Origin: a bacterium
GTDB lineage: Bacteria > Krumholzibacteriota > Krumholzibacteria > LZORAL124-64-63
Reading direction: 5' to 3'
Assembly (NCBI GenBank): GCA_030592025.1
Contig: JAUUZX010000037.1
Coordinates: 1-8,446 of the forward strand
DNA: 8,446 bases
Shown here: in pieces, positions 3,841 through 7,057 of the stretch
How positions within the stretch are numbered: position 1 is the stretch's first letter
Layout: each line of letters starts with the position of its first letter
Position numbers and translations under genes: made by a program
The notes under the pieces: model-generated
The model's input: the letters and a program-made list of their open reading frames with translations, nothing else
What the model was told of the DNA's origin: nothing
Databases searched by the model: none

Positions 3841-3864
3841 CAAACCGTTTCAAGGAGGAACGCC

Positions 3865-4104
3865 ATGAGAACCGATCCCGACAGACCGATCCCCGCCACG
3901 GGCATCGAAGCCGGCCTCGAACGCCTGGGCGTGCGCGAACTCGAGGAGCGCATGGAGTTGAGCCCCCTGCTGGCCGATGGGGGCGTGGGGGACACGGACA
4001 ACTGCGAGTGCACCTGCCGCTGCGACAACACGATGCCCGAGGAGATCGACATCCCGATCCTGTACGGCGACCTGAAGCCCGAAGAGATCACGCGCGGTTT
4101 CTAG
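3865..4104 (+). CDS. Small Cys-cluster peptide, candidate RiPP precursor
   Basis: A 79-residue acidic peptide with an excellent ribosome-binding site (AAGGAGG at 3852-3858, 6 nt before the ATG). That start is preferred over the longer open frame from 3598, which is a shadow of the DUF2797 gene. Residues 13-36 are predicted helical and leader-like (GLERLGVRELEERMELSPLL), followed by a glycine turn (ADGGVGD). The core has alternating cysteines at 47, 49, 51 and 53 (NCECTCRCDN). An acidic tail, residues 57-79, holds IDIPILYGDL and ends in RGF. There is no signal peptide or membrane segment. The stop codon overlaps the start of the acyltransferase homologue by one base, and a membrane protease follows. 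Leader-like helix, compact Cys core and immediate coupling to putative processing genes fit a ribosomally made, modified peptide. I do not recognise a known family. Alternatives are a small metal-binding protein or a regulator of the next gene. Confidence 0.7.
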   Translation: MRTDPDRPIPATGIEAGLERLGVRELEERMELSPLLADGGVGDTDNCECTCRCDNTMPEEIDIPILYGDLKPEEITRGF

Positions 4105-5276
4105 TGGACCCACGATCGACACCCTCGCCAAGCCGGTCGAGGCCCGGGATCCTGCGGGACCCCGAGCCCGACCGGCGGGCGCAGCCGGCGAACACGCTGT
4201 GGGAGTTGTGGAACATGCGGGCCCTGGACCCCGCGGCCACACCGGACGACCTCATGGCCTACCGCGCCCGGCGCGCCCAGGTCCTGGCAAGAGAACGGGA
4301 GGCTCTTGCCGGGCTGTGGTCGGGGGCCAAGGACATCCTGGCCCCCGGCCACGGTTTCTTCGCGGCAAACCCGGAACTGGCTTCCGGCCTGCTCGTCTCC
4401 ATGCACCTCGGGCCGTATGCGCTCGTCCCCGAGCCCCTGCTGGCCATGGGCCGGACGCTGCGGGTGCTGGTCACCCCGGAGGCACGCCGAAAGAACGAGG
4501 ACCAGGCGACCCGCATGGGTGCACGGTTGGGGCATGGCGCGGACATCCGCTGGTTGCCCCTGGGCGATCGCGGCACCCTGCGCGAGGTGCTGCGGGCCCT
4601 GCGGGACGGCGAACCCGTCTTGGCCTACGTCGACGGCAATCTCGGCGAGGACGGTTTCGCCGGCACCCGCGACCAGGGCCTCGACTTCGAACTCCCGGGG
4701 CGCACCATCCGCGTGCGCACGGGGCTGGCGCGGCTGGCCGCTCGCGTGGGGTGCCCCATCCATCCGGTATCGGTGCACTGGGATGAGGACGGCCGCCCGG
4801 TGTGGGTCCGCGGCGCCACCCTCCGCCCGAAGCGGGGCGACGACCCCGGCGAGGTCACCCGCCAGATCTTCGACTGGGTCTTCGGCGAGATCCGGGCCTA
4901 TCCCGAGCAGTGGACCTTTTGGGCCATGCTCAAGGAGTCGGCGGCGTGCTTCGCGACGACGGCCCTCGATGACGCCGCCGTGCCGCCCCATTTGCGCGGC
5001 GACTATGCCCGCGCCTTTCGCATCTGCTTCGACCGCTCCCCGGCCACGGCCCGGCTCCATCTGCAGCGGGAGGTGGCCGTGTGGCCCGGCGACGTGCTCG
5101 TCGACCTGCACAGCGACCGCTTCTTCGACGCCGGAGGTCTGCGCGATGCCGACCTGACCTCCCTGCGCGCCGGCCGGCCCTCCCTGGCCGAACTGGCGGC
5201 GGAGCACGGCGAATCCTGGGTGACGTACCATGCCTTGAGGCTCTGCTTGCTGGGCCTGGCCCGCCTCGACGGATGA
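4104..5276 (+). CDS. LpxL/HtrB-like LPLAT-superfamily acyltransferase homologue with C-terminal PqqD/RRE-like domain
   Basis: A 390-residue protein. The GTG at 4104 shares its G with the upstream TAG stop (TAGTG), indicating translational coupling; no clear Shine-Dalgarno is seen and the in-frame ATG at 4215 is an alternative start. Residues about 85-275 follow the LPLAT order: SMHLGPYALVP at 99-109 in place of the catalytic HxGxWE block, VLAYVDGNLGEDGF at 172-185, FELPGRTIRVRTGLARLAARVGCPIHPV at 195-222 (typical G…LA…G-P-x-x-P pattern), and YPEQWTFW at 266-273. His101 is present but position 106 is Ala, not Asp/Glu, so acyl transfer by the standard dyad is doubtful. There is no N-terminal TM anchor, unlike LpxL. 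Residues about 316-390 look like beta-beta-alpha-alpha-alpha (VAVWPGDVLVDLHSDRFFDA, then SLAELAAEHG and a final helix), as in PqqD-type peptide-recognition domains; this is inference. Likely role: bind and perhaps acylate the upstream peptide. Confidence 0.75.
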   Translation: MDPRSTPSPSRSRPGILRDPEPDRRAQPANTLWELWNMRALDPAATPDDLMAYRARRAQVLAREREALAGLWSGAKDILAPGHGFFAANPELASGLLVSMHLGPYALVPEPLLAMGRTLRVLVTPEARRKNEDQATRMGARLGHGADIRWLPLGDRGTLREVLRALRDGEPVLAYVDGNLGEDGFAGTRDQGLDFELPGRTIRVRTGLARLAARVGCPIHPVSVHWDEDGRPVWVRGATLRPKRGDDPGEVTRQIFDWVFGEIRAYPEQWTFWAMLKESAACFATTALDDAAVPPHLRGDYARAFRICFDRSPATARLHLQREVAVWPGDVLVDLHSDRFFDAGGLRDADLTSLRAGRPSLAELAAEHGESWVTYHALRLCLLGLARLDG

Positions 5277-6301
5277 GCCGCGAGCCGATCCTGCTGGTGC
5301 ACGCCCATCCGCAGGGGCCATGGGTCGTCCAGCGGGGTGACCGGCGGTTGGCCGTGCCCGCGGTGTTGGGGAGGGTTCTGGCGCCTTGGAGCGGCACGTC
5401 GCCGCGGCGGGCCGATCTGCACGGCGCGCTTGTCGGGGCCACCGGCGCGGCGCCGCAAGATGTGGACGGGCTCCTGGCCGTCCTATGGACCCGCGGACGC
5501 CGGCGCCGCGGACCCTGGCTGCGGGGGGTGGTGCTGCCGCCACGGCTGGTGGCGCGCCTCGCCCAACCGCTGGCTGCCGCGACGGACGCGCGCCGCCTGT
5601 TGATGCTTGTGGGGTTCGGCGTCGTGGGCCTGGCCGCGGGCCTGTCCTTCGGGGCGGCGCCTGCAGATAGCCCGACCAACTGGGCCGTCGCCATCCCGCT
5701 CTTCCTGGCGTCGGCGCTGCTCCACGAGTTGGGCCACGCGGCCGCCCTCCTGCGCCGGGGCTACCCGCCGGGGGCGGTGGGCGTCGGGCTCATGTTCGTC
5801 CTGCCCGTGCTGTGGTGCGACGTCTCGGCCGTCACCGCCCTGCCGCCCCGCCGTCGGCTGGGGGTCGACCTGGCCGGCCCCGCCTTCCAGTTCGCCGCCG
5901 CCGGGTTGTTCGCGTTGGTTGCCCTGGTCTGGCCCGCCGTCGGCCGGCCGGCGGCGACCGCCGCGGTGGGCGCCGTGATCTGGAGCCTTCTGCCGTTCAT
6001 CCGCTCCGACGGGTTCTGGGCCATCGGCGACCTACTGGGTGTCGGAGATCTGGACCGGCAGCCCCAATCCTGGGAGCCGCGGAGAGTGGTCGTTGCGCTG
6101 GGGACCTACCGCCTGCTGCACACCGTTTTTCTGGCGACGATCGGGATCGTGATCGGCGGTCGCGCCGCCGCCCTGGGGAGCCACGTTTTCGGCTATGGAC
6201 CGGACGTCCGGCAAACCGTCGCGTGGGTGTTGGGGTCCGCGGCCCTGATCCTGGCCGCGCGCCGTCTCCTGCCCATGAAATCGGGTGCGCCCGCACCCTG
6301 A
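5273..6301 (+). CDS. M50-type membrane zinc metalloprotease (RiPP-associated type)
   Basis: A 342-residue multi-pass membrane protein. The ATG at 5273 overlaps the previous TGA (ATGA), so translation is coupled; no Shine-Dalgarno is evident. Residues 1-100 are soluble and may be a degenerate winged-helix or peptide-binding region, ending in a LRGVVLPPRLVARLAQPL block that often precedes the membrane domain in peptide-processing M50 proteins. Hydrophobic segments lie near 108-127, 137-150, 165-181, 203-222, 229-243, 284-296 and 316-330. The zinc motif is HELGH (151-155). Family-typical partners are CDVSAVTALPPRRRLGVDLAGP (182-203, D199) and SDGFWAIGDLLG (245-256), either of which may supply the third zinc ligand. 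All are intact, so the enzyme is probably active. Relatives cleave membrane-bound or ribosomal peptides during maturation, so processing of the 79-residue peptide is the natural inference. No dedicated ABC transporter is present in the window. Confidence 0.85.
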   Translation: MSREPILLVHAHPQGPWVVQRGDRRLAVPAVLGRVLAPWSGTSPRRADLHGALVGATGAAPQDVDGLLAVLWTRGRRRRGPWLRGVVLPPRLVARLAQPLAAATDARRLLMLVGFGVVGLAAGLSFGAAPADSPTNWAVAIPLFLASALLHELGHAAALLRRGYPPGAVGVGLMFVLPVLWCDVSAVTALPPRRRLGVDLAGPAFQFAAAGLFALVALVWPAVGRPAATAAVGAVIWSLLPFIRSDGFWAIGDLLGVGDLDRQPQSWEPRRVVVALGTYRLLHTVFLATIGIVIGGRAAALGSHVFGYGPDVRQTVAWVLGSAALILAARRLLPMKSGAPAP

Positions 6302-6357: not shown

Positions 6358-6648
6358 GTGACCAACCTGCCCCCGGATGATCCCGGCGAACCCGTCGAGC
6401 TGCCCATCGACGGCGTCCTCGACCTGCACACCTTCGCCCCCCGGGACGTGAAGGAACTCGTGCCCGCGTGGCTGGACGAGTGCCGGGCGGCGGGGATTCT
6501 CGACGTGCGCATCATCCACGGCAAGGGCCAGGGCGTGCTGCGGGAGATCGTTCACGGTATCTTGGCCAAGGACCCCAAAGTGGTGCATTTCGGGCACCCG
6601 TCCGATGGCGGATCCTGGGGCGCGACCGTGGCCAGACTGGAGAAATGA
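6358..6648 (+). CDS. Small Smr-domain protein (complete motifs)
   Basis: A 96-residue protein that is essentially one Smr (small MutS-related) domain. The GTG start at 6358 has GGAAGG 7 nt upstream. All three signature elements are visible: LDLH at 21-24, HGKG within RIIHGKGQGVLR at 51-62, and the closing GGSWGATVARL at 84-94. Smr domains are nicking or RNA endonucleases in several characterised proteins (MutS2 C-terminus, SmrB, which cleaves mRNA at collided ribosomes). With both LDLH and HGxG present this copy is probably catalytically competent. It is followed after 10 nt by a second, divergent Smr gene, so the two are probably cotranscribed. The biological substrate cannot be read from the sequence. 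Confidence 0.9.
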   Translation: MTNLPPDDPGEPVELPIDGVLDLHTFAPRDVKELVPAWLDECRAAGILDVRIIHGKGQGVLREIVHGILAKDPKVVHFGHPSDGGSWGATVARLEK

Positions 6649-6658
6649 AGGCGGGACG

Positions 6659-7057
6659 ATGGCGAAGAAGAAGAAGCGCAAGCCGGTGAGCGACGAGCCC
6701 GACGCGGGCCCGCGGCGCGGTCTGCGCAGGTCGATCCGCCACCAGGCCGTTGAGGACTGGGAGGACGTCGACGCCGGATCCATCGTGGACGCCCAACCGC
6801 CGCGCATCATGCTGCGGATGTTGCCCCTGCGCGAGGCGCTGGCCATGTTGGAGCGCGAGGTGCGCCTGCACGCGGGGAACGGCGAGGCCGAGGTGCTGGT
6901 CGTCCACGGTCGGGGGACGAACTCGCCGGGCGGTGTCTCGGTGCTGGGTCCGGAGGTGCGCCGTTGGTGCGCCGACAGTTCGCTGGTCCGGAGTTGCCGC
7001 GAGGCTCCCCGTCGCTGGGGCGGCGAGGGCGCCGTGGTGCTGAGCCTGGTTCCTTAG
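6659..7057 (+). CDS. Second, divergent Smr-domain protein lacking the LDLH motif
   Basis: A 132-residue protein. The ATG at 6659 is chosen over an in-frame upstream ATG at 6605 (inside the preceding gene) because of AAGGCGGG shortly upstream and the typical basic start MAKKKKRK. Residues 1-30 are highly basic and probably disordered, suited to nucleic-acid binding. Residues about 47-131 form an Smr domain: PLREALAMLEREVRLH helix, VLVVHGRGTNSPGG at 79-92, and the closing EAPRRWGGEGAVVLSL at 115-130. The LDLH signature is replaced by IMLRML (50-55), while HGRG (83-86) is kept, as in YdaL/SmrA-type proteins. Its stop codon TAG runs into the Shine-Dalgarno of the next gene. Pairing with the complete Smr protein just upstream suggests the two act together or on related substrates; this is inference. 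Confidence 0.85.
   Translation: MAKKKKRKPVSDEPDAGPRRGLRRSIRHQAVEDWEDVDAGSIVDAQPPRIMLRMLPLREALAMLEREVRLHAGNGEAEVLVVHGRGTNSPGGVSVLGPEVRRWCADSSLVRSCREAPRRWGGEGAVVLSLVP

Follow-up and report, generated by a model that had tools for sequence, protein, structure and literature searches.

What could a short peptide with a cysteine cluster, a homologue of lipid-synthesizing acyltransferases and a membrane protease be doing together? This question is raised by the window analyzed here, i.e., the whole stretch of 8,446 nucleotides, for which the original prediction, made from the letters alone, proposed a RiPP-like locus.

Organization of the locus

The gene of the precursor peptide (79 aa) lies at 3865..4104 on the + strand, an assignment based on its open reading frame, its relatives, profile matches and pN/pS values, and is preceded by a Shine-Dalgarno-like AAGGAGG read directly at 3852..3858 (+). 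It is followed by the gene of a 390-aa LPLAT-fold protein (4104..5276, +), whose GTG start lies within TAGTG (4102-4106) and overlaps the precursor stop, and then by that of a 342-aa M50-type membrane metalloprotease (5273..6301, +), whose ATG lies within ATGA (5273-5276) and overlaps the LPLAT stop. All three reading frames are intact and run in the same direction, and the two stop/start overlaps are as they had been described.

A Pfam scan covered ten proteins encoded in the window. On one side, the cassette is flanked by a protein with a Gate domain, one with Big_9 and FlgD_ig domains and one with DUF2797; the opposite flank has a pair of Smr proteins, an SDR and a Cpn10. The Big_9 protein (1514-2812) carries its FlgD_ig domain at the C-terminus and has a signal-peptide-like start, being likely a surface or secreted protein. 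The two neighboring Smr-domain genes are found at 6358-7057, and their homologues recur 3' of the cassette in several relatives. In agreement with the original prediction, no YcaO, lanthionine synthetase, radical SAM enzyme or ABC transporter was found among these ten proteins, nor any other known RiPP-modifying enzyme, which leaves the LPLAT homologue as the only candidate modifier in the window. The lack of a transporter among the ten was counted against our main reading of the cassette, in which the LPLAT protein acylates the peptide. A promoter/terminator scan returned no promoter-like site and three terminator-like sites, a result that carries little meaning.

The precursor peptide

Searching a protein database with the peptide gave 12 matches, namely its own entry and 11 relatives at E ≤ 2.2e-9. 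We then analyzed an alignment (A6) of 45 precursors, omitting P0121 and P0123, which are identical to the peptides of the window and of locus L001, respectively. Mean column entropy was 1.22 bits at window residues 14-36 (IEAGLERLGVRELEERMELSPLL; 3904..3972, +), as compared to 2.39 bits afterwards, and L18, L21, R29 and E31 were invariant. The core of the window's peptide contains the cluster CECTCRC (C47, C49, C51 and C53; 4003..4023, +), and 44 of the 45 precursors have a Cys aligned with C49. Each core has between one and five cysteines, so that at least one is present in 45/45; Asp and Pro likewise occur in every core, and Cys is thus not the sole universal residue, which was counted against our main reading. 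Ser and Thr are present in 42 cores and Lys in 34 (11 being devoid of it). Core types vary, from CxCxCxC and CCxCK to CCHDKCSGND and CCNNFCQCK, with one-Cys cores in a second type of cassette described below, and the cores are short and acidic (on average 7.9 D+E versus 2.0 K+R). Moreover, pN/pS ranged from 0.18 to 0.81 in the 15 precursor pairs chosen, i.e., it was below 1 in all of them, indicating that the precursors are proteins under selection. Judged by these entropy and pN/pS values, the peptides have the conserved leader and variable core of a ribosomal precursor and, with a core Cys in each, all 45 look like RiPP precursors.

Co-occurrence and gene order in relatives

A search with the LPLAT protein gave 137 matches, and a second one, seeded with eight divergent members, gave 42, the weakest at E 9.8e-95; since both scored only the approximately 8000 candidates sharing most words, more distant relatives may exist. 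Relatives with a stated organism belong to Krumholzibacteria or to an unclassified bacterium. A scan of genome contigs returned one locus repeating the cassette, L001 from MAG Gpa_8, while a scan of viral contigs returned no relative. The neighbors of L001 match those of the window, with Gate-domain and DUF2797 proteins on one side and Smr, SDR and Cpn10 proteins on the other.

Among 80 genomes of the phylum of L001, the precursor was found in 34, the LPLAT in 32, the M50 in 32 and all three in 30 (Fisher p of 1e-17 to 3e-17 per gene pair, ignoring common descent). LPLAT matches were counted at E ≤ 1e-30, which leaves out weaker ones (G023, G056, G076 and others), and a precursor match in G015 (E 3e-4, a 28-aa frame with one internal stop) was not counted either. 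The LPLAT is present in 31 of the 34 precursor genomes, as befits an adjacent candidate modifier inherited together with its precursor. Of the six exceptions, three reflect contig breaks, two are loci that appear to have decayed, and the last, G052, is a genome with the second cassette type only. As to the breaks, G048 has its precursor near a contig end and the M50 end at the start of another contig, the LPLAT of G056 is cut by a contig end, and G046 has an M50 match at a contig start. As to the decayed loci, in G049 the end of the precursor core is altered and the next ~1 kb is devoid of an LPLAT, and G045 (L062:3314-4700, minus strand) encodes an LPLAT with Gln in place of the catalytic His, together with an upstream frame that retains a leader-like piece without the LEERxE motif, and gives no M50 match.

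Gene order was evaluated in 34 loci, leaving out the C-terminal LPLAT fragments L035, L036 and L037. In 33 of them the LPLAT is immediately preceded on the same strand by a precursor, or by two in L043 and L047, and 29 have an M50 downstream, in 28 cases within ~25 nt when the start nearest to the LPLAT stop is taken. The five loci with no downstream M50 are L032, L033 and L062, together with L034 and L058, which are cut off at that point by a contig end. Start codons were set automatically and could be misplaced. In L059, where a false domain hit distorts the computed offset, the gap is ~7 nt by coordinates. An LPLAT start able to overlap the precursor stop was found in 17 of 33 loci, bearing in mind that a TGA stop easily yields an overlap if the frame fits. 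In L048, ~1.9 kb with an opposite-strand 395-aa frame separate the LPLAT from the M50 and resemble an insertion. When 37 loci were drawn with a crude gene finder, 17 of them showed a DUF2797 homologue at most 7 kb upstream, and homologues of Smr, SDR or Cpn10 proteins repeatedly follow the cassette; many of the other loci are cut by contig ends. In addition, in P0082 and P0107 the precursor leader and Cys core continue into the LPLAT in one protein; these could be genuine fusions or could result from sequence errors.

The original prediction had staked the locus on the conservation of the peptide and its joint occurrence with LPLAT and M50 in this order. As the three genes do co-occur, with the six exceptions accounted for individually, this check failed to refute it, and 45 precursors with a conserved leader, a fixed gene order and co-occurrence over 80 genomes make the association better than chance.

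A second cassette type was observed in G052, G054 and G055, while G053 has a C-terminal LPLAT piece only (L033:5715-7037, L032:356-1744, L034 and L037). It combines a divergent LPLAT with a precursor whose core holds a single Cys (KSYVC or KSYIC), as is the case in L032, L033 and L034. No M50 is adjacent where the contig continues (G052 and G054), G055 being cut by the contig end, and this was counted against peptide acylation in an LPLAT-M50 cassette. A FabH gene follows the second type in G052 (as a fragment), G053 and G054; we considered it as evidence for an acyl donor and dropped it, as orthologues are found in G001 and G051, each of which has one first-type LPLAT match.

Fold and catalytic residues of the LPLAT protein

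The 390-aa protein matches Pfam Lip_A_acyltrans above its cut-off (E 2.4e-6), and its modeled LPLAT domain has the PatA/LpxM fold, as expected of the LpxL-like acyltransferase homologue that had been proposed. Catalytic residues were assessed in an alignment (A4) of 106 rows, namely the window, three read-through rows and 102 among the 120 matches listed (of 137), and by alignment to PatA; a smaller alignment (A2) held the window and 25 among the same 120 listed. H101, in the motif HLGPYA (codon at 4404..4406, +), corresponds to PatA H126, and its column is His in 105/106 rows, with Ala in P0059; the LPLAT of L062, with its Gln, lies outside this alignment. D177, in the motif DGN (codon at 4632..4634, +), corresponds to the charge-relay acid E200 of PatA and is Asp in 106/106. 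Both catalytic residues of PatA type, the His and the acid of block 3, are thus in place. The acid of the HX4D/E motif is not, as neither D nor E is found at H+5 in any of the 106 rows, while HX4E is kept in all six ordinary LpxL copies of the same phylum that were aligned (out of eight regions fetched). A change from DxD to DGN was considered as a mark of the family and dropped, given that the same six copies read DQD in four cases, DVN in one and DQH in one.

Altered chemistry is one possible consequence of losing the HX4D/E acid, and this loss, together with the absence of the His in P0059, was counted against acylation of the peptide. It does not equate to loss of activity, a reading that we dropped: according to PMC4792965, PatA H126A and E200A are inactive and D131A retains 37% of activity, and PMC9597891 describes VexE as active with a Tyr instead of that acid, which indicates that the acid is dispensable. 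We weighed the possibility that the cassette is of RiPP type and its LPLAT-fold protein does not fatty-acylate, using instead another acyl donor or transfer chemistry, or serving the M50 as a leader-binding scaffold. This alternative, which we find unlikely although it is the strongest of those considered, accommodates the uniform loss of an acid that ordinary LpxL copies keep, but it sits poorly with the retained PatA-type relay His and Asp, as well as with the VexE precedent. Reuse of the fold only as a carrier, as the original prediction had also allowed, likewise appears less likely from the sequences, since His and Asp are so widely kept. Peptide acylation is the most likely function that we would assign to the LPLAT protein.

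The LPLAT tail and the N-terminus of the protease

RRE and PqqD domains have a winged-helix-like fold of three strands followed by three helices. At its C-terminus the LPLAT protein has a tail (roughly residues 310-390; 5031..5273, +), a possible RRE-like domain. In the model of the fused protein P0082 this tail appears as a helix, four strands, three helices and one strand, a predicted fold that is compatible with an RRE and no more. The N-terminal domain of the M50 protein (5273..5497, +) is modeled by AlphaFold as three strands and then three helices, an RRE-like order, with a mean pLDDT of 91.

The PqqD-like tail claimed at the outset did not hold at the level of detectable homology. Neither the tail nor the M50 N-terminus has a Pfam match to PqqD (PF05402), and hhalign against 26 PqqD domains (26 of 30 loci used, four being too short) gave a probability of 0.1% for both, the tail scoring like shuffled controls, whereas two subgroups of the same PqqD domains matched each other at 99.6%; the low diversity of the tail alignment (Neff 2.6) limits the power of this test. 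A home-made profile comparison with PqqD yielded z 2.1 for the tail, with 8 of 150 shuffles as good, and z -0.4 for the M50 N-terminus. Likewise, no profile homology was found between the tail and the M50 N-terminus, and the VIA listings for the LPLAT and M50 models contain no PqqD or RRE row, which excludes nothing. The lack of tail-PqqD homology despite a working control was counted against the acylating-cassette reading. As for the leader, a further point against that reading is that no docking onto the LPLAT was seen in the natural-fusion model P0082, whose first 90 residues have block pLDDT values of 28-56 and whose alignment is nearly empty at the leader: A4 held two natural and three read-through fusions, and only one such row aligned with the leader. 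In sampled rows of a joint MAFFT alignment (A3), 0 or 1 of 39 precursors were placed on the leader of the fused protein.

PqqD-family matches were observed elsewhere in 62 of the 80 phylum genomes (L097-L126), many with a THSLEDIGxFIW-like motif, and on the cassette's own contig in G001 (C178), G065 (C78) and G067 (C17); these are perhaps separate RiPP loci.

The M50 protease

The 342-aa protein carries the zinc-binding motif HELGH (5723..5737, +), whose H151, E152 and H155 are invariant in 25/25 sequences, and an SDG motif with D246 (codon at 6008..6010, +), also invariant in 25/25, which we take to be the third zinc ligand from what is known of the M50 family. The HExxH and distal Asp of an M50 metalloprotease are hence present throughout, and the reading frame is whole, so that the intact M50 membrane protease of the original prediction stands. 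Its profile matches are to NCBIfam daptide_HExxH (1.4e-18; 67.3 bits, below the equivalog cut-off of 300), to NCBIfam YydH/LiaK (1.4e-5; 24.9 bits, below the equivalog cut-off of 225) and, weakly and below cut-off, to Pfam Peptidase_M50 (0.0023); a sub-threshold Acetyltransf_6 match (Pfam, E 0.13) was also recorded.

Among solved structures, the M50 model is nearest in fold to SpoIVFB and MjS2P, and this resemblance, along with the housekeeping-type genes that recur beside the cassette, would also suit a non-RiPP system in which a small signaling or regulatory protein is cut by a site-2-like M50, while the LPLAT acts on a membrane lipid with the peptide as its regulator. Such a scheme is in our view improbable, as it does not sit well with a variable Cys-bearing core behind a conserved leader, with the paired precursors of L043 and L047, or with the fact that both NCBIfam models matched describe RiPP proteases.

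Comparison with known systems

The lipidated lanthipeptides (selidamides, nostolysamides, goadvionins and microvionin) resemble the cassette in having a leader-bearing precursor with an adjacent dedicated acyltransferase. They differ in that, in the systems described in PMC13060382, the acyl group is added to lanthipeptides by GNAT enzymes, while here an LPLAT takes that place and neither a selidamide-type GNAT acyltransferase nor a lanthionine synthetase is found among the ten window proteins. Pearlin pathways, too, process a carrier peptide with an M50 protease of the membrane; TglG and TmoG remove a residue from its C-terminus (PMC10885120). No PEARL-type enzyme is found among the ten proteins. 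With the epipeptide (YydF/EpeX) and daptide systems the cassette shares a related M50 HExxH membrane protease beside a small precursor, as annotated in NCBIfam, although the window protease falls below both equivalog cut-offs. Epipeptide and daptide gene sets include radical SAM or other pathway enzymes, and no such enzyme is among the ten window proteins. Relative to PatA and LpxL/LpxM, the window LPLAT has lost the HX4D/E acid, has gained a C-terminal domain and has its gene beside those of a precursor peptide and a protease.

In the open-licence literature we found no paper linking an LPLAT or lipid A acyltransferase with a RiPP, which leaves absence in print unproven, none combining an acyltransferase, an M50 and a precursor peptide, and none on a daptide with an M50 or metalloprotease.

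Proposed function of the cassette

Overall, the cassette is real, conserved and of RiPP type, as originally proposed, and its composition was not found described in the open-licence literature. That the peptide is instead a small Cys-rich metal-binding protein with unrelated neighbors is very improbable, for its CxCxCxC and CCxC patterns and acidic core are outweighed by the one-Cys cores of L032, L033 and L034, by co-occurrence in fixed order over 80 genomes and by the precursor-LPLAT fusions. We give about an even chance to the reading in which the core receives an acyl group from the LPLAT, perhaps on a Cys, and is cleaved or released by the M50. In its support are the co-occurrence, the fixed order, the fusions, the conserved leader ahead of a variable core that always has a Cys but in 11 of 45 cases no Lys, the PatA/LpxM fold, the conserved catalytic residues of both LPLAT and M50, the activities of the PatA mutants and of VexE, and the locus of G045, where an M50 match, the catalytic His and the LEERxE motif are all missing. 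The leader would be recognized by the LPLAT protein, possibly via its C-terminal domain, and an acyl group would be moved from acyl-CoA or acyl-ACP onto the core. The acceptor would perhaps be the near-universal Cys, otherwise a new N-terminus or Ser/Thr, and the M50 would then strip the leader in the membrane and free the lipidated core, by analogy with the M50 proteases of epipeptides and pearlins. Both the Cys as acceptor and the tail as recognition domain are inferred.

More tentatively, and with less confidence than in acylation as such, the cassette might represent a RiPP class of its own, the first whose defining enzyme is a peptide acyltransferase of LPLAT fold. Such an enzyme would derive from a lipid A/PIM-type one by gaining a C-terminal leader-recognition domain and by acylating a peptide Cys in place of a sugar hydroxyl, and the M50 would free an S-acylated (or N-acylated) peptide, the whole being a near-core trait of one bacterial clade.

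The same genes recur on the flanks of the cassette, which points to a long residence at one site and suggests that it has a physiological role rather than making an occasional antibiotic. As it has only three genes, it is directly testable. If our reading is true, a lipid-biosynthesis enzyme fold would join the RiPP modification enzymes, and a second route besides GNATs would lead to lipopeptides on a genetically encoded scaffold. Moreover, a little-studied bacterial group would have kept a RiPP pathway throughout the clade, often beside the same housekeeping-type genes, as would be expected if it had a physiological role.
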